From NCBI GenBank assembly GCA_013334965.1, contig JAAXWO010000001.1:275929-339928 (forward strand): a stretch of 64,000 nucleotides of DNA, written 5' to 3'. This DNA is from Chlorobiaceae bacterium. Lineage in GTDB: Bacteria > Bacteroidota > Chlorobiia > Chlorobiales > Chlorobiaceae. The notes under the pieces were generated by a model. It searched no databases. It had not been told where the DNA came from and saw only the letters and a list, made by a program, of their open reading frames with translations. Position numbers and translations under genes: made by a program. This document shows positions 49,758 through 58,322 of the stretch, one piece after another. Numbering within the stretch: the first letter of the stretch is position 1; the number at the start of each line of letters is the position of its first letter.

Positions 49758-50052
49758 GGTGCGTGACGCGAGACACGTAACACGTGAAGCGCCAAGAGTT
49801 AAGCATAACAGATTACGAGTCATGGCTTTTGCGTGACGCGAGACACGTAACACGTAACGCGATAAAAGTCACGCGTCACGGCTCACGAGTTATGGATTAC
49901 GCGTCACGGATTACGGGTCACGCGTCACGTGTTACGCGTCACGAATCACGCGTCACGATTCACAGTTCCCGAGTCACGCGTCACGATTCACAGTTCCCGA
50001 GTCACGCGTCACGCGTCACGGATTACGGGTCAAGGATCACGATTCACGGATG
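49758..50052. repeat. Degenerate GTCACG/ATTACG-type repeat patch
   Basis: About 295 bases made of variants of short units such as CGTCACG, ATTACGGGTCACG and ACACGTAACACGT. Longer exact duplications lie within it: a 26-base unit at 49760-49785 and 49830-49855 (spacing 70), and a 28-base tandem pair at 49947-49974 and 49975-50002. Neighbouring DNA has nothing alike. It is not a CRISPR array because units vary and spacers are absent. A reading frame inside it (49784-50158) encodes SRVTRH-like repeats and is probably spurious. Confidence 0.85.
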
Positions 50053-50124
50053 TGTCGGGAACCAGAAAAATATTTTGTACATTGCGAAACTGAAACTATA
50101 CCACAAGATTAAAAGCGGACTACA

Positions 50125-51609
50125 GTGCCAAAACGCGAGGATATCAAGTCGATTTTAGTTATCGGAGCAGGCCCAATCGTCATCGGGCAAGCATGTGAAT
50201 TCGATTATTCAGGCACGCAGGCATGCCGTGCCCTGAAAGAGGATGGATACCGGGTCATTCTGGTCAACAGCAATCCGGCCACCATCATGACCGATATCGA
50301 GTTGGCCGATGCGACCTATATCGAGCCGATCACCCCGGAATATGTAGCAAAGATCATAGAGAAAGAGAAGCCGGACGCGCTGCTTCCCACCATGGGCGGA
50401 CAGACCGCGCTGAACACGGCTGTGAAGCTGGCCGAATCGGGCATCCTGGAACGTTACGGCGTCGAACTGATCGGCGCAAAGCTCCGTGCCATCAGGAAAG
50501 CCGAGAACCGCGAATTCTTCAGCGACGCCATGAAAAAGATTGGCCTTGAGATGGCCAAAGGCTTTTTCGTGCGCAACGAAAAAGAGGCGAAAGAGGCTCT
50601 TGAAGAGATCGGCCTGCCGATCGTCATTCGTCCTTCGTTTACCCTTGGCGGCACGGGTGGCGGTTTTGCCGAAACCAAGTCGGACTTCTACGATGCCGTC
50701 AGGCGTGGCCTGGCAGAGAGCCCGATTGGCGAGGTGCTGGTCGAGGAGTGCCTTGTAGGCTGGAAGGAGTATGAACTCGAGGTCATCCGCGACCTTGCCG
50801 ACAACGTCATCATCGTCTGTTCGATAGAAAACGTCGATCCGATGGGAGTCCACACCGGCGACAGCATCACGGTCGCACCCGCACAGACCCTTACCGATCG
50901 ACAGTACCAGGAGCTGCGTGACATTTCGATCAAGATCATCCGCGAAATCGGCGTTGAGACCGGCGGCAGCAACATCCAGTTCGCCATCAACCCTGAAGAT
51001 GGCCGCATCGTCATCATCGAGATGAACCCGAGGGTTTCGAGAAGTTCCGCACTCGCCTCCAAGGCCACCGGATTCCCGATCGCCAAGGTCGCAGCCAAGC
51101 TAGCTGTCGGCTACACGCTCGATGAGATCATCAACGATATCACCAAGACCACCCCTGCGAGCTTTGAACCCTCGATCGACTACTGTGTGGTCAAGGTTCC
51201 CCGCTGGGACTTCGAGAAGTTCAAGAACGTGGATGCCCGCCTCGGCGTGCAGATGAAGTCGGTCGGTGAAGTGATGGCTTTCGGCCGGAACTTCAGGGAA
51301 GCGCTCCAGAAATCGCTCCGCGGCCTCGAAATCGGTCGTGCAGGTCTCGGTTGTGACGGCAAGGACATCATGAACGTCATCGACATGACCCAGCAGCAGC
51401 GCCAGTTCGCCAAGGAGGACCTGCTCGAGAAGATCAAGGTGCCGAAGGCCGACAGGATGTTCTATCTGCGCTACGCGTTCCAGGCAGGAGCCACCGTCGA
51501 AGAGATTCATCAGTCGACAGGCATCGATCCCTGGTTCCTTGACAACATCCGCCAGATCGTCGCGTTTGAGGATGAACTTCGGGAGATGGCAGCCGGCAGC
51601 GAGTCATGA
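50125..51609 (+). CDS. carB: Carbamoyl-phosphate synthase large subunit, half gene
   Basis: A 494-residue protein corresponding to the N-terminal half of Car[55 protein letters not shown], and [31 protein letters not shown] form the carboxy-phosphate ATP-grasp domain, followed by the oligomerisation region. The usual large subunit is about 1070 residues; here a stop follows at 51609 and trpC starts 4 bases back, so the second ATP-grasp and allosteric domains must be encoded elsewhere. Split CarB genes are known in some bacteria and archaea. The start is GTG, with a repeat patch upstream. Confidence 0.93.
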
Positions 51610-52382
51610 CCTACCTGACAAGGATTCTCGAAACCAAGGTCGAAGAGGTTGCCGTTCTCAGCAAGCAAGAGCCTGAGCGCAGGTATCGTGAGGTTTGTCG
51701 CGAACTTCCGGCCACACGGGATTTTTATTCCGGCATCAGAAGCCACGACGGCGGCATCAGCCTCATCGCCGAAATCAAGAAGGCCTCTCCTTCACGGGGA
51801 GTGCTCGTCGAAGATTTCAGGCCGCTCGAACTTGCCGCTGAGTACGCCTCTCTGGGTGCTTCCGCCTTTTCCGTCCTGACCGATCGCAAATATTTTCAGG
51901 GTTCGCCAGACTACCTCAGGGCAGTGACGAACGCTGTTTCCATTCCTGTGCTCCGCAAGGAGTTCATCATCGACGAGACCCAGATCTACGAAACCCGCCT
52001 CATGGGCGCCGATGCGGCGTTGCTGATCGTGGCGGCATTAGAACCTTCGCAGTTGGGGGACTACCTCCAGCTGTTCGGCGAGCTCGGCCTGCACGCACTG
52101 GTCGAGGTCCACGACCTGAAGGAGCTCGAAATCGCCCTTGAACAGGGTTCACGCATTGTAGGGGTCAACAACAGGGACCTCAGGGACTTCACCGTCGATC
52201 TCCAGACCTCCGTCCGCCTCAAGGCAGAGATGCCCCAAGGCATCATCGCCGTCGCCGAAAGCGGCATGAAGCGAAAGGACGACATCCTCATGATGCAGCA
52301 AGCCGGATTTGACGCCGTCCTGATCGGCGAAGGCCTGCTCACCAGCCAAGAGCTCAAGCAGTTCCCCTGGCAGCGGCCGTAA
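51606..52382 (+). CDS. trpC: Indole-3-glycerol phosphate synthase
   Basis: Tryptophan pathway enzyme closing the indole ring. The 258-residue TIM barrel has [63 protein letters not shown] and [14 protein letters not shown]; the catalytic Lys and Glu are present. It overlaps the carB half gene by 4 bases, an unusual coupling of arginine/pyrimidine and tryptophan genes. The direct repeat A begins right after the stop. Confidence 0.96.
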
Positions 52383-52387
52383 ATTTA

Positions 52388-52510
52388 TCTTTTTGAGTAG
52401 TCAAGGCTGTTGGTTGGTCGTCGTATAGTCTATGGCGGTTGTGATCGTTTCCTGTTAGTGCTAAATTTTAGATATTCTTGGGCTATGTAAGTTCATGAAT
52501 TCAGGGACGT
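52388..52510. repeat. Direct repeat A, left side of the cassette region
   Basis: About 120 bases that recur, with some changes, at 54041-54165 in the same orientation: shared stretches include AAGGCTGTTG, AGTCTATGGCGGTTGTG, TTTCCTGTT, TAAGTTC and GAATTCAGG. In the reverse direction its end (GGGGACGTCCCTGAATTCATGAACTTACATAGC) closely matches the start of the 146-bp tandem repeats at 54614 and 54760. It ends shortly before the GTTAGCC core at 52535. Confidence 0.8.
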
Positions 52511-52534
52511 CCCCGGACTATTCCCGGACTATTC

Positions 52535-52541
52535 GTTAGCC
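52535..52541 (+). other. GTTAGCC core site, left cassette boundary
   Basis: GTTAGCC near the end of direct repeat A resembles the R' core (GTTRRRY) where integron cassettes join, differing by one base. It lies 11 bases before the first cassette gene. Inferred from its match to the cores at 53527 and 54195. Confidence 0.45.
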
Positions 52542-52551
52542 TCTTTACGCA

Positions 52552-53451
52552 ATGGAGATAGATATGAACGACCATGAAGCATACAGGAAGTTTACGGGAA
52601 AGGCTGAGTTTGAGAAGGCGGTAAATTCCATCCTGGGCTTGGTAGAAGGCATTGTCATTGATGCCAAAATAAACGAAAAAGAAATCGGTTTCCTTCAGGC
52701 ATGGTTAGGCGACCATCGAATTAATTCCGGAAGGCATCCCTTCAATGAGCTTTTTCCAGTAGTTGAGCAAGCCGTTGCTGACGGTGTCCTTACTGAGGAT
52801 GAAAGATCAGATATATTGTGGCTCTGCAAATGCCTTACTTCTGTGGAGTATTTCAATACCGCTACCGCAGAGATGCAAAAGCTTCACGCCATTGTTGCAG
52901 GCATCGCCTCAGATGGTGAAATATCCGTTGAAGAGCTAAAGTGTCTGTCTGTTTGGCTAGAGGAGCATGAACACCTGAGGCGTTGTTGGCCATATGATGA
53001 AATTGAAAGTCTCGTCACCAGCGTTCTGGTAGACAAGAAGATCGACCCCAATGAGCACAAGATACTAATGCGCTTTTTCGGTGAATTTATATCTATCCTT
53101 GATAACAAGACGATTGTTAGCCCGGCATTTCTTGATGGTTCAAATATTGGTGGTCTGTGTGCCGTATGTCCGGAAATAGCGTTTTCTAATACTGTCTTTT
53201 GCCTTACCGGACAATCACACAAGTACACAAGGAATGAGTTTGAAGAACTAATCTCCAGTCTCGGCGGGACGGTCTCAAGCGGTGTTTCCAAGAAGGTTAA
53301 CTATCTGGTCGTTGGCGCAGACGGGAATCCGTGTTGGGCATATGCCTGTTACGGACGCAAAGTTGAGAAGGCCGTTGAGCTCAGAAGGGCAGGGTATCCT
53401 ATAGTTATCGTTCATGAAAATGACTTTCACGATGCAGTATTAGATCAATAG
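52552..53451 (+). CDS. TerB-like helical protein with C-terminal BRCT domain (cassette gene 1)
   Basis: A 299-residue soluble protein. The first ~180 residues form two similar helical acidic units (EGIVIDAKINEKEIGFLQAWL, AVADGVLTEDERSDILWLCKCL, AGIASDGEISVEELKCLSVWL, SVLVDKKIDPNEHKILMRFFG) like the TerB/tellurite-type metal-binding fold. The last ~95 residues are a BRCT domain (VFCLTGQSHKYTRNEFEELISSLGG, VSSGVSKKVNYLVVGADGN, KAVELRRAG), as in DNA ligase and replication factor C. A DNA- or phosphoprotein-binding role is likely. GC content is lower than in core genes. It is followed after 18 bases by an attC-like site. Confidence 0.72.
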   Translation: MEIDMNDHEAYRKFTGKAEFEKAVNSILGLVEGIVIDAKINEKEIGFLQAWLGDHRINSGRHPFNELFPVVEQAVADGVLTEDERSDILWLCKCLTSVEYFNTATAEMQKLHAIVAGIASDGEISVEELKCLSVWLEEHEHLRRCWPYDEIESLVTSVLVDKKIDPNEHKILMRFFGEFISILDNKTIVSPAFLDGSNIGGLCAVCPEIAFSNTVFCLTGQSHKYTRNEFEELISSLGGTVSSGVSKKVNYLVVGADGNPCWAYACYGRKVEKAVELRRAGYPIVIVHENDFHDAVLDQ

Positions 53452-53469
53452 CGCATTGAGCTGGCGCTT

Positions 53470-53533
53470 GGCTAACCATTCATTGCTGCCGCAACGGTTC
53501 TGCCCGGCTGCGGACTGAACTCAAACGTTAGCT
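53470..53533 (+). other. attC-like recombination site
   Basis: 64 bases with R''-like GGCTAAC (53470-53476) and R'-like GTTAGCT (53527-53533), complementary to each other. Inside, TTCA (53479-53482) pairs with TGAA (53516-53519) and CCGCA (53489-53493) with TGCGG (53509-53513), leaving a 15-base loop. TAACCATTCATT near the left and TGAACTCAAACGTTAG at the right strongly resemble known integron attC sites such as that of aadA cassettes. Orientation fits gene 1, then attC, then gene 2. Confidence 0.72.
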
Positions 53534-53541
53534 TTCATATC

Positions 53542-53997
53542 ATGGATGTACAGAACCCGGCGAAGATCTCTTTTATTAAGGCAATTCACCTTTGCTTTCT
53601 AGCCCTCTTTTGTCCACAGCGGTTTATTGCCGAGGAACAAGCCAATAATCGACAACTGAATGAGTTTCCACGGGTTGAACCTGAAAATCGTGCTCTTAAA
53701 CTCCGTCATGCGTTGCTCAGAGCATTCGAGCTTGTGGCTCTCTCGGGTGTAATTGGAACTACTGTTGGAAAGATAGCGCACGTGTTTTGTGGCCCAGCAT
53801 CATCAAACACAATTTCCATATTGCAAATTGCCGGTGCCTTGCTATTGCTTTGGGGAACTCTTGCCGTTCGTGGGTGGGATATTCAAACCTTTGGGGGTGC
53901 TACCCTTACAGAGCGTGTAAATCAATGGATCTATCGTTTTCTGTACTGCTGCGGAACCGCTGTCCTTGTAATCTCGTTGTCTTGGCCCCAAAACTAG
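53542..53997 (+). CDS. Small membrane protein (cassette gene 2)
   Basis: A 151-residue protein with three to four hydrophobic segments (ISFIKAIHLCFLALFC, ALLRAFELVALSGVIGTTVG, ISILQIAGALLLLWGTLAV, FLYCCGTAVLVISLSW) and a charged loop after the first (NRALKLRHALLR). I do not recognise a family; a single small hypothetical membrane protein is typical of integron cassettes. It starts 9 bases after the attC-like core, as cassette genes do. The stop is near 53997, and direct repeat B follows. Confidence 0.6.
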   Translation: MDVQNPAKISFIKAIHLCFLALFCPQRFIAEEQANNRQLNEFPRVEPENRALKLRHALLRAFELVALSGVIGTTVGKIAHVFCGPASSNTISILQIAGALLLLWGTLAVRGWDIQTFGGATLTERVNQWIYRFLYCCGTAVLVISLSWPQN

Positions 53998-54040
53998 GGA
54001 GGATGGCAATTCTCAAGGTTTCCATGACTGCGTTAAGTTC

Positions 54041-54165
54041 TCTTTTATGAGTAGTTAAGGCTGTTGCTCTGTCGTCGAATAGTCTATGGCGGTTGTGGTC
54101 GTGTTTCCTGTTGTACGGAATTGTTAATATACTTGAGCTACATAAGTTCCTGAATTCAGGACCGT
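54041..54165. repeat. Direct repeat B, right side of the cassette region
   Basis: The second copy of repeat A (52388-52510), same orientation, imperfect along its length. It contains the perfect palindrome CCTGAATTCAGG (54149-54160). Like A it is followed about 30 bases later by a GTTAG core. A and B bracket the two cassette genes, so they could be old recombination or transposition ends, or diverged long attC-type elements. Confidence 0.75.
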
Positions 54166-54194
54166 CGTCGATCCGTTCCATGTCCTTTGCTGGC

Positions 54195-54201
54195 GTTAGG
54201 C
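54195..54201 (+). other. GTTAGGC core site
   Basis: GTTAGGC matches the integron R' consensus GTTRRRY exactly and is preceded by GC, as in many attC ends. It marks a possible junction between cassette gene 2 and the small gene at 54281. I could not find a complementary R'' in the 200 bases before it. Confidence 0.45.
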
Positions 54202-54280
54202 AACTGTTTGCGCATTCGTCATTAAATCAAAACGGCTTTCGTTTTCAATCTATTACGCACCGTAAAGAAGGAAGGGTAAA

Positions 54281-54484
54281 ATGGAAATAGGCAAAATATA
54301 TGACGTTGCATTCTCAACTGGCCGTTATGAAACGGAATATGAGCGCGGCGTAAAATGCATCAAAAAAACACCTCAGTCATATCGCGTAGAAAGAGCCGAT
54401 GGCACAAAAAGATTAATAAAGCAGGACTTTATTATAGAACTTAAGGAAGTTGTAGATGCTGAAGACGATAGGGTAAGTTCCTGA
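54281..54484 (+). CDS. Small basic protein (possible cassette gene 3)
   Basis: A 67-residue protein (IYDVAFSTGRYETEYER, YRVERADGTKRLIKQDFII) predicted to be a beta-rich soluble fold. AGGAAGGG stands 6-7 bases before the ATG, an excellent ribosome-binding site, which supports it being real despite its size. It follows the GTTAGGC core by about 80 bases. Family not recognised; it may act on nucleic acid or be a regulator, but this is not shown. Confidence 0.55.
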   Translation: MEIGKIYDVAFSTGRYETEYERGVKCIKKTPQSYRVERADGTKRLIKQDFIIELKEVVDAEDDRVSS

Positions 54485-54613
54485 ATACTTAACTCACATC
54501 CCCCGCTTAATGTCAACAGAGATGTCGCTTTTTATTAAAGTAATACATTCACTTTTCGGCCGGGTTCAGCACCACTTCCCGGTTGATCTCCCACGTTCTA
54601 GGGAGATCAGGGG

Positions 54614-54904
54614 GGAGATCAGGGGGACGTTCCTGAAATCATAAACTTACATCGCTATACGACATTCAGTGACTGAGGTGACCAAGCAAAGAAACCTTAC
54701 GATTCAAAGATCGGCGGCTATTTTATCGAGGTCGTTGCTGTCGACGAAAGCAGCGAATAGGAGATCAGGGGGACGTTCCTGAACTCATAAACTTACATCG
54801 CTATACGACATTTAGTGACTGAGGTGACCAAGCAAAGAAACCTTACGATTCAAATTCCGGCGGCAATGTTTGGCGAGGTCGTTGCTGTCGACGAAAGCAG
54901 CGAA
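54614..54904. repeat. Two tandem 146-bp repeats
   Basis: Copy 1 is 54614-54757 and copy 2 is 54760-54904, about 90% identical, both starting GGAGATCAGGGGGACGTTCC and ending GTCGACGAAAGCAGCGAA. Differences cluster in a ~20-base patch near the end. Their first 40 bases match the reverse complement of the end of repeat A. The tandem arrangement suggests a duplicated mobile-element fragment. Confidence 0.9.
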
Positions 54905-54909
54905 GATGT

Positions 54910-54971
54910 TGGGCTGAAGCCCTGAATATATTTTTTGTATTCATTATCCCCCGGGTTGAAACCCGGGGCAA
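54910..54971. repeat. REP-like double hairpin
   Basis: GGGCTGAAGCCC (54911-54922) and CCCCGGGTTGAAACCCGGGG (54951-54970) are perfect short hairpins 30 bases apart, a format common in repetitive extragenic palindromes of environmental bacteria. It probably has copies elsewhere in the genome. Confidence 0.6.
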
Positions 54972-55157
54972 CTGGTATGTAAGATGTCTGAATGTCCGGA
55001 GTCCTGACAAGTCGGGGCTCCGGAATATGGGACTGATTCTGCAAAGCGACAGTAGAATTTGGGTTCTGATGTCAGATGTCCCGACAAGTCGTGGGGGGCA
55101 TCAGCGACGATCATGACTAAGTGTACTTATGAAGCATTTAACATAACATTATTTGAG

Positions 55158-55237
55158 AGGAGGGCGGGTTTTCCAGGCCGCCATTACATTCGTCGAGTGT
55201 CGGGGATCGAATGGCGTACAGGAATGTCCGCCCTCCT
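55158..55237. repeat. 80-bp imperfect hairpin element
   Basis: AGGAGGGCGG (55158-55167) pairs with CCGCCCTCCT (55228-55237), with CATTCG/CGAATG inside. It looks like another REP-type or small non-autonomous element. Confidence 0.55.
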
Positions 55238-55284
55238 TTGGTCGGCATTGAATTGAGGAGACTGTCAAGGAATTGATAGGCAAT

Positions 55285-55322
55285 AAAAAAAGGGGCTACC
55301 TGAAAAGTGGCCCCTTTTTTTA
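55285..55322. terminator. Bidirectional terminator before rpe
   Basis: A7-GGGGC-TA pairs with TGGCCCC-T7 around CCTGAAAAG, giving U tracts in both directions. It ends the minus-strand rpe transcript and separates it from the repeat region. Confidence 0.88.
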
Positions 55323-55442
55323 TCCGTTCATTACTTAATTCGAAGCTCGCCTTTGAATTGCCGAGCCGGAGTTCGGCGCTCCCGGGGTTTGGCATTCCTG
55401 ATTTTTCTTCAGAGAGAAGCGCTTTTTGCGTTTTCCCAGGGT

Positions 55443-56102
55443 TTAGATTCCCTTGATCTTCCTCGCTGCTGCGGCGGGGTCGGCTGCCTTGAAGAAGGCG
55501 GTGCCGGCGATCAGTGCGTCGGCTCCGGCGGCTGAGAGTTCGGCGGCGTTCTCTTCGGTTACTCCGCCATCCACGGCTATCACCATCCGCGGGTTCATCT
55601 CCATGCGCATGGTATCGAGGCTCGCTATTTTGGCGACCGATGAGGGAATGAACTTCTGGCCGCCGAATCCGGGGTTCACGGACATCAGCAGGACGAGGTC
55701 AAGGTCCGGCAGGATCGATTCGAGCACCGAGACCGGAGTGGCCGGGTTGATCGAGACGCCGGCTTTGGCTCCGAGGCTCTTGATGTACTGGATCGTGCGG
55801 TGCAGGTGGGGGCATGCTTCCTGGTGCACCGTGATCTGGTGCGATCCGGCCTTGATGAAATCCTCGATAAAGCGGTCGGGATCTTTGATCATCAGGTGGG
55901 TGTCGATCACCAGGCTGCTGGATTTGGCGATTGCTTCGACGATCAGGGGGCCGAAGGTTATGTTGGGTACGAAAGCGCCGTCCATGACATCACAGTGGAG
56001 CCAGTCCGCACCTGCTTTTTCAGCAAGTTCGATAGATGACTTCAGATTGGTGAAGTCAGCAGATAGAATCGACGGGGCAATGAGGGTGGATTTGCCGGGC
56101 AT
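55443..56102 (-). CDS. rpe: Ribulose-phosphate 3-epimerase
   Basis: Interconverts ribulose 5-phosphate and xylulose 5-phosphate in the pentose phosphate pathway. The 219-residue TIM barrel has APSILSADF, WLHCDVMDGAFVPNITFGP, LVIDTHLMIKDPDRFI, LLMSVNPGFGGQKFI and VIAVDGGVTEENA; metal-binding His and Asp residues are present. It lies 42 bases downstream of the Omp85 gene on the same strand and ends before a bidirectional terminator. Confidence 0.96.
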   Translation of the reverse strand: MPGKSTLIAPSILSADFTNLKSSIELAEKAGADWLHCDVMDGAFVPNITFGPLIVEAIAKSSSLVIDTHLMIKDPDRFIEDFIKAGSHQITVHQEACPHLHRTIQYIKSLGAKAGVSINPATPVSVLESILPDLDLVLLMSVNPGFGGQKFIPSSVAKIASLDTMRMEMNPRMVIAVDGGVTEENAAELSAAGADALIAGTAFFKAADPAAAARKIKGI

Positions 56103-56144
56103 AAGCTTTCAGGTGTTGTTAGATGAAAAAACTGGTTTCTGATG

Positions 56145-58322
56145 TCAAAAAGCCTCTCCAATTCCAAAGTTGAAGGTGAGGTTCGATAGGCCCATGTTCG
56201 AAAATTGCCATGGGTTCGGATTTGCCGGGTCGTGCACTTTCCATGCGAAATCGAATCTGAACGGTCCGATGGGCGAGCCGATGCGCAGGCCGGTGCCCCA
56301 GTCCCATGCAAAATCCCTGGTCAACGATTGAATCGAGAACGCATAAGGGCCTTTCCTGTCCCAGATGTTGCCGACGTCGGTGAAGAGGGTTATCCCCGAC
56401 GGTTGTCCGAAGACCTTGAACAGCTTCATCCGGTACTCCAGGCCAAGTTCGGCCTTGATGTCGGCGCCGAAGCTGGATGTCGCCGCGCTTCGGCAGTTGG
56501 CTGGCCCGAGGGTGTTGAACAGCCAGCCTCTCATGCTGTTTGAGCCTCCTGCATAGAACCGGTGCTCTTCAGGCGTCGTTTCTGCCTTGCCGTATGGGCT
56601 CATCCAGCCAAGGGAGATCCTGCCGGCGACCTGTCGATCAGGGGTCAGGTCTTTTGCGAAGGCGAGTTGCGTATCGAGCTTGAGGTATTGTGAATATGCT
56701 GTGCCGAAAATCTGTGGCTGGGAGTCCCCGAACGTACTGTACTGTTTCTTGTCGATGTATTTGTCGATGAGCCACAGCAGGCTGCCTGACTCTTCGGCAG
56801 TGGTCGTGAAGTTCCATGTCGTCGTCTTGAGTGGCGACAGGTCATTCCTGTTGGAATAGTTGTATTGCAGGCGGAAGGTCTGGATGAGCCTTGTCTGGAG
56901 AAGGCTGTCGATGCCTTTGCTCACTGCGGTCGGGTTGGCAGGATTGATGCCGATGTTTTTTGCCAGATCGGTCTTGAACAACTGTTCGAAGCCGCGCAGG
57001 GAATCTTTGCGGACGACCTCGATCTCGAAGAAATCGAAATTCATGCGCGAGTTTTTGGTGGGCCTGGTGCTGTAAGTGGCCCTGGCGATCTCCCTGCGAC
57101 TGGAGAGCAGCACGGGAAGCTTTGACTGGGCATATTCCACGGATGAGTTGTAGTATGATCCCTGTCTTTTCAGTATCGGCATGAGCAGGTCAGCCTTGAT
57201 GTTGAGCTCATACGGGATGATCTTGTCGTACTGGTCCGGCGTGAGGTTGCCCAGGAGGTTCGTGTTCGATGAGGTCTGGATGCCGTAATTGCTCGAAAGC
57301 CTGAATTGCTGGCCTCCGCCGAACAGGTTCCTGTTTTCGTAGGCCAGCGCTCCACCCAGAAAAAGTGAGCCGTAGCGGTTGTCTACGAGGAGTTTCGGTT
57401 CGATCTGTTGTTTCGGGCTCGGTTCCAGATGGATCGTCGTGTAGATGCTTCCCGATTTAATGGAGTCTTTTTCTATCGAAATCGACGAGAAAAGGTTCGT
57501 TGATCCGAAGTTCTGGAGGGTTCGTTGTTCGAGTGATTGCCGGGTCGTCTCTCCAGCTCTCCACGCTATCGAGGTGGGGAAGAGTTTCTGTGAGAATTTC
57601 TGGCGCCCGTAGATGGTTACCGAGACGTTGTCACGCTGGAATCTTGTGGCGGTAGATTCATCATCCTTTTTCCTCGGGTCATGAACCACGGCTCTTACCG
57701 GGCCGTATGCAAACCTGGCGGGTATGCCGATGCGGAAGTGCACACCTGCGTTCAGGCCGAGGGTATCGACCTTGATTCTGATGCTGTCGGGGTGGATATA
57801 GGCGTAACCGTTCTCCTTGAAAAATTCAAGGGAGCGGTCACGTTCCTGGATAAGCTTTTCTACAGAAAATATCTCCCTTACCTTCAGTACGCTTTTGTTG
57901 AAGTAACCGGTACGGAGCTCTTCCGGTAAGGTTTCAAGTCCGGCATAGGTGAGCGAGTCGATGCTCGTCGGCTTGTTTTCCTTTATTGAGATGAGGATGT
58001 CGACGTTTCGTCCGGGTTTGCGGACGATGGTGGTGTCGACGTCTGCGAAGAAGTAGCCCTTGAAGGTATAGAGCTTCCTGATCAGGTTGATGTCTTTTTC
58101 GAAGTCTTCGGAGATGAACGGACGGACACCTCCCCTGAAAAGGCCAGATCCCAGAAAGGAGCTCCGGGTCGATGTCATCATAATTCCCCGGATCTCATCG
58201 GAGGTGATGGCTTTGTTGCCGGTGATCCGTATGCTTTTAACCTCCTGAACGGCTGGCGACCTGCTTGTAGCGCCGGACGAGCCGTTCTCGGCCCATACAT
58301 ATACCGGCGACATGAGAAACAA
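56145..58322 (-). CDS. Omp85-family outer-membrane assembly protein (BamA/TamA-like)
   Basis: A barrel protein of at least 725 residues. POTRA-type units lie in the N-terminal third (VKSIRITGNKAITSDEIRGIM, KPTSIDSLTYAGLETLPEELR). The C-terminal half is a 16-strand-type barrel with FYAGGSNSMRGWLFNTLGP, the RGW/RGF loop-6 motif of Omp85, and ends GIGEAF with the terminal Phe. Fewer POTRAs than classic BamA are visible, so TamA-like or a second BamA is possible. The open frame starts at TTG 58322 with only a partial signal peptide; an ATG at 58380 would supply a full signal peptide but is shifted by a T10 run. Confidence 0.85.
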   Translation of the reverse strand: MFLMSPVYVWAENGSSGATSRSPAVQEVKSIRITGNKAITSDEIRGIMMTSTRSSFLGSGLFRGGVRPFISEDFEKDINLIRKLYTFKGYFFADVDTTIVRKPGRNVDILISIKENKPTSIDSLTYAGLETLPEELRTGYFNKSVLKVREIFSVEKLIQERDRSLEFFKENGYAYIHPDSIRIKVDTLGLNAGVHFRIGIPARFAYGPVRAVVHDPRKKDDESTATRFQRDNVSVTIYGRQKFSQKLFPTSIAWRAGETTRQSLEQRTLQNFGSTNLFSSISIEKDSIKSGSIYTTIHLEPSPKQQIEPKLLVDNRYGSLFLGGALAYENRNLFGGGQQFRLSSNYGIQTSSNTNLLGNLTPDQYDKIIPYELNIKADLLMPILKRQGSYYNSSVEYAQSKLPVLLSSRREIARATYSTRPTKNSRMNFDFFEIEVVRKDSLRGFEQLFKTDLAKNIGINPANPTAVSKGIDSLLQTRLIQTFRLQYNYSNRNDLSPLKTTTWNFTTTAEESGSLLWLIDKYIDKKQYSTFGDSQPQIFGTAYSQYLKLDTQLAFAKDLTPDRQVAGRISLGWMSPYGKAETTPEEHRFYAGGSNSMRGWLFNTLGPANCRSAATSSFGADIKAELGLEYRMKLFKVFGQPSGITLFTDVGNIWDRKGPYAFSIQSLTRDFAWDWGTGLRIGSPIGPFRFDFAWKVHDPANPNPWQFSNMGLSNLTFNFGIGEAF

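Follow-up and report, generated by a model that had tools for sequence, protein, structure and literature searches.

The window, as the whole stretch of 64,000 nucleotides analyzed here is called, comes from a member of the Chlorobiaceae and carries, between trpC and rpe, an insert with three open reading frames, one attC site and copies of a 23-nt repeat (GACGTYCCTGAANNCATNNACTT). The features of the locus are the following:

51606 to 52382, plus strand: trpC (indole-3-glycerol phosphate synthase; name from sequence), left neighbor outside the insert, present in 19 of the 21 genus genomes.
52383 to 52511, minus strand: repeat unit A, beginning directly at the trpC stop and headed by the 23-nt repeat (52489 to 52511); 82% identical to unit B.
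52535 to 52541, plus strand: core GTTAGCC, marking the left border of cassette 1, exactly where the homology of genomes G201 and G213 begins.
52536 to 53527, plus strand: cassette 1 (G^TT to G^TT); G201 DNA is 90% identical over 52535 to 53536 only.
52567 to 53451, plus strand: ORF1, 294 aa, with a C-terminal BRCT domain (Pfam BRCT, 2.3e-8).
53470 to 53533, plus strand: attC, with R'' at 53470 to 53476 and R' at 53527 to 53533.
53542 to 53997, plus strand: ORF2, 151 aa, the gene of cassette 2, a probable membrane protein, beginning 9 nt past attC.
54043 to 54166, minus strand: repeat unit B, with the 23-nt repeat (54144 to 54166) at its head, in the position expected for the attC of cassette 2.
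54195 to 54201, plus strand: core GTTAGGC, marking the left border of cassette 3, where homology to a cassette of genome G372 begins.
54281 to 54484, plus strand: ORF3, 67 aa, of the truncated cassette 3, its 3' part replaced; the alignment to locus L133 ends at about 54453.
54626 to 54648, plus strand: 23-nt repeat heading a 145-bp unit whose tandem copy is 94% identical.
54772 to 54794, plus strand: 23-nt repeat heading the second unit of 145 bp.
55443 to 56102, minus strand: rpe (ribulose-phosphate 3-epimerase; name from sequence), right neighbor outside the insert.

In this genome trpC and rpe lie 3.06 kb apart. They are adjacent in all 16 genus relatives where both could be read, with 91 to 337 nt between the aligned gene ends, and the insertion is lineage-specific. 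The initial 2.5 kb of the insert has no alignable counterpart in the trpC-rpe gap of any relative, so that the exact empty site is unreadable. Elsewhere in the window, a degenerate tandem repeat of 7/14/28 nt (GTCACGAGTCACGG) occupies 49760 to 50051, between a JAB-domain gene and a carB-like gene.

A preliminary description of the window had proposed a 64-base attC with complementary GGCTAAC and GTTAGCT ends at 53470 to 53533 (GGCTAACCATTCATTGCTGCCGCAACGGTTCTGCCCGGCTGCGGACTGAACTCAAACGTTAGCT), and both the position and the pairing of the ends (six of seven positions) hold. Each R box carries one mismatch to the strict consensus (RYYYAAC / GTTRRRY), while the inner L'' and L' arms form 5-6 pairs and retain the base at the extrahelical position, with two pairs missing. 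The bottom strand, to which an integrase would attach, has a folding energy of -11.8 kcal/mol (z -2.15; equalled by 5 of 200 shuffles), and the top strand folds more weakly (z -1.27); this check, suggested beforehand, came out in favor of the site, but on its own the bottom-strand fold is modest support for attC. A crude scan of the 64-kb window for R boxes and arms gave no more matches than shuffled sequence, and a covariance model (R1) was built instead. It comprises 16 attC sites from related-genome arrays and class 1 plasmid cassettes, with the R and L arms set by hand and with the window and OXA-10 attC sites excluded from training. R1 scores the window site at 27.3 bits (E 0.011 across the whole 2.48-Mb genome) and recovers the plasmid cassettes as well as the excluded OXA-10 site (37.3 bits). 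As a negative control, 9 of the 21 genus genomes gave no match at E <= 0.05, so false positives of R1 are rare at the score of the window site. An Rfam scan of 50000 to 58000 returned nothing relevant.

A blind plasmid search with 53455 to 53540 placed 15 OXA-10-family cassette records at the top (best E 2e-7), the remaining matches listed all having E >= 0.7. The attC of an OXA-101 record aligns gaplessly with the window attC along 64 nt, with identity at 51 positions, and the R boxes are the same as in the blaOXA-10 cassette; the two differ in that L-arm pairs are lost in the window copy and the carried gene is unrelated. Inspection by eye against the G201 copy shows, in the window attC, one pair that has changed with compensation and two L-arm pairs that are broken, so that the site may be partly decayed. 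A mere inverted repeat, formed by chance between ordinary genes, would agree with a crude scan at the level of shuffles and a z of only -2.15, but the covariance call and the plasmid match argue against it and the homology borders in other genomes, described below, refute it, leaving this explanation a negligible probability. We thus take 53470 to 53533 to be a genuine attC site. The attC of another cassette of this genome (L098 6155-6218, C6:186154-186217) is gapless and identical to the blaOXA-10 attC at 55 of 64 nt, and that of the ORF1 cassette in G201 is likewise close to it; these likenesses suggest an attC lineage common to environmental bacteria and a clinical cassette.

The extent of the cassettes was read from homology in other genomes. 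GTTAG occurs ten times on the plus strand of the window and by itself is weak evidence of a core site. ORF1 has homologues in the sister genus (89% identical in G201 and 88% in G213), and the DNA similarity of G201 within the insert is confined to 52535-53536, that is, from the GTTAGCC core to 3 nt beyond attC; in G201, a different gene then follows the attC. The similarity of G213 begins at the same core, there preceded by attI-like sequence, and ends within attC. Both genomes have an IntI match above the curated cut-off, on another contig. Cassette 1, bounded by G^TTRRRY at both ends and found in varied surroundings, behaves as a gene cassette. For cassette 3 the same applies to the left end.

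The GTTAG-type cores previously noted at 52535 and 54195 are both present and both coincide with homology borders, but R1 calls no attC at the latter, which lacks an R'' box and is only a cassette edge. That it is a real edge is shown by G372, which has the ORF3 sequence, with similarity beginning at the 54195 core and weak R1 matches at the locus. With the ORF3 cassette beyond this core, there are three cassettes, all in one direction, rather than two: the ORF1 and ORF2 cassettes of the two-gene array first described stand, but the truncated third had been overlooked. Cassette 2 has no recognizable attC, and repeat unit B occupies the position expected for it. ORF3 diverges after about 54453, and its tail resembles the 23-nt repeat from 54474.

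Concerning the cargo, position 52567 is a likelier start for ORF1 than 52552. The protein had been called TerB-like with a BRCT domain; the BRCT part was confirmed and is the only one of the two that the window protein shows, but TerB was rejected, a match coming from one relative only (E 0.1). PADLOC PDC-S48 was also rejected for ORF1, as the match is restricted to the C-terminal BRCT part. No family is assigned to the N-terminal part. In view of the BRCT domain, a role of ORF1 in DNA repair or defence is conceivable. An AlphaFold2 model of ORF1 made without an alignment has a mean pLDDT of 40.7 and was set aside. ORF2 is probably a membrane protein, in view of hydrophobic stretches seen by eye. 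A homologue, 39% identical, is found in a Thermoanaerobaculia MAG (L110 4001-4438), near which no attC was called; a plasmid search with ORF2 gave no match, and a search of 394 phylum genomes found it in its own genome only.

No intI lies at the window locus, as had been observed for the window, and no IntI above the curated cut-off of NCBIfam TIGR02249 was found in the whole genome. Six stretches below the cut-off correspond to three whole tyrosine recombinases and one 38-residue piece on contig C14. The three whole recombinases were rejected as IntI, every stretch being below the cut-off. The short piece (C14 25040-25153, minus strand) aligns with the final residues of IntI, of which it is a remnant: it is 57-78% identical to the IntI of relatives, compared with 42-55%, over shorter stretches, for the other recombinases of the genome. 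The DNA upstream of it is 85% identical over 181 nt to the upstream flank of intI in G153, a genome of the same genus, and the match then skips to the end of intI, about 0.9 kb of which is missing. In C14 the remnant is followed by attI and three attC in the same direction. This attI is also found at relatives' loci with intact intI, and its motif stands beside the intI genes of seven relatives. It is clear at C6 and C14, but it was not found at the window locus (score 12 vs. a shuffle maximum of 16), which has neither the intI gene nor the attI of a complete integron.

The search of the genome for further attC sites, proposed beforehand together with that for intI, was likewise productive. 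At E <= 10, R1 gives eight matches, which fall into four clusters: C3 (two), C6 (two), the window (one) and C14 (three); four of the eight are at E <= 0.05, with at least one in each cluster, and some of the C3, C6 and C14 matches are weak. C3 and C6 are two integrase-less arrays besides the window and C14 loci: in C6 attI stands ahead of two attC and no intI was found, and in C3 a weaker attI-like leader stands ahead of two attC. An attC call, other attC sites with an intI remnant in the genome, and a similar cassette in relatives, whose joint absence had been named as grounds for giving up the proposal, were all found.

The picture extends to the genus, where attC is called at E <= 0.05 in 12 of the 21 genomes, counting this one. 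IntI was searched for (E <= 1e-60) in seven of the eleven other attC-bearing genomes and detected only in G153; the single-contig genome G102, for example, has eight attC calls at several places and no IntI. As six of the seven relatives searched have attC without detected IntI, integrase-less cassettes are usual in the genus. High rates of intI pseudogenes are on record (PMC2426708), and so are CALINs (clusters of attC sites lacking integrase) and integrons in Chlorobi (PMC9024848).

The 23-nt repeat has ten genomic copies at <= 3 mismatches, and a reversed control has one. Copies outside the window are at C6:187018, C14:20633 and 21628, C15:111, and C20:15490 and 17714, and the copies head units of 100-150 nt that are often directly repeated. 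Seven of the ten lie at cassette loci, at three of the four loci; counted as clusters, three of five are at cassette loci (P ~6e-6 under random placement, in a test framed post hoc). The repeat was not found in the relatives' loci examined, and in relatives GGGGAC motifs showed no general association with attC above control motifs. A REP hairpin was considered and rejected, since folding is no better than in shuffles. Just past the C14 array, near-alike tandem copies of an ATPase gene (L015 4209-5408 and 5503-6402) are accompanied by copies of the repeat. A small element, mobile or recombinogenic, that has the repeat at its head, targets cassette arrays or attC and disables them appears improbable to us; the repeat may either have caused the truncations or simply occupy tolerant DNA.

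Taken together, we consider it very likely that the locus is a small CALIN between trpC and rpe, comprising ORF1 with an intact attC, ORF2 with a lost attC and the truncated ORF3, whose cassettes were most probably brought by an IntI since lost and are now probably immobile and decaying. The likely agent would be a former IntI of which only the remnant elsewhere in the genome is left. Such an enzyme would recombine at the G^TTRRRY cores of single-stranded, folded attC; deprived of it, the cassettes would be immobile, and their recombination sites appear to be in the course of being broken up by repeats and mutations. The array is flanked by neither attI nor a recognized target site, and transfer by another element or recombination between repeats would give a similar picture.

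Two routes of entry may be considered, to neither of which we would give quite an even chance. In the first, a finer version of the CALIN explanation, IntI integrated the cassettes directly into a non-attI, attG-like chromosomal site between trpC and rpe. The missing attI, the precise left edge at G^TTAGCC and the dispersed attC of relatives without detected intI are consistent with this, and insertion into attG is described by Loot et al. (2024), as cited in PMC12901181. However, on the left the array is flanked by repeat unit A, and the recurrence of this unit after cassette 2 means that the original target has been overwritten, and no empty-site sequence can be aligned. The second route, which we hold to be just as credible as the first, does without IntI: part of an earlier integron with an attI would have reached this place through recombination between repeats or with the help of another mobile element. 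The 23-nt repeat with units A and B brackets cassettes 1 and 2, and its concentration at cassette loci fits this route; yet the repeat is also present at the C6 and C14 arrays, where attI is retained, and thus may merely follow arrays, and no transposase was identified with it.

Whichever the route, the CALIN reading agrees with CALINs as defined for IntegronFinder (PMC9024848) in the shared direction of its attC cassettes, the lack of intI in the neighborhood and the presumed nature of a degraded or stranded integron. The cluster lacking integrase that was first proposed is therefore supported, but with a single intact attC, with the array broken by repeats, and with a 38-aa IntI remnant elsewhere in the genome. 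IntegronFinder 2 by default requires at least two attC for a CALIN, although single ones can be real (PMC9024848); by that default the window, with one intact attC, falls short; the matches elsewhere number two at C3, two at C6 and three at C14. In chromosomal integrons of the same bacterial family intI is transcribed toward the cassettes, an atypical layout also described in Treponema (PMC3607928). The window locus shares their kind of cassette and differs in lacking intI and attI, while C14 of this genome has IntI remnant, attI and cassettes in the same direction. The element is of a kind already known and common, and the locus adds one more case, which the homology borders document well.

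Candidate phage defence genes are carried by cassettes of the sister arrays (L015 8786-9727, 7715-8728 and 6854-7618; L097 6086-6838 and 6896-7750), namely a TIR protein (PADLOC PDC-S66, 2e-68, ThsB-like) and an HNH/SAVED-type nuclease, along with AbiJ_NTD4 below the Pfam cut-off and a weak Mrr match. This single genome keeps cassettes at four places after integrase loss, in a genus with several attC-bearing members in which intI is undetected. Since sister-array cassettes match TIR, HNH/SAVED and AbiJ-type families of defence proteins, the genes carried may have been retained for their use rather than for mobility.
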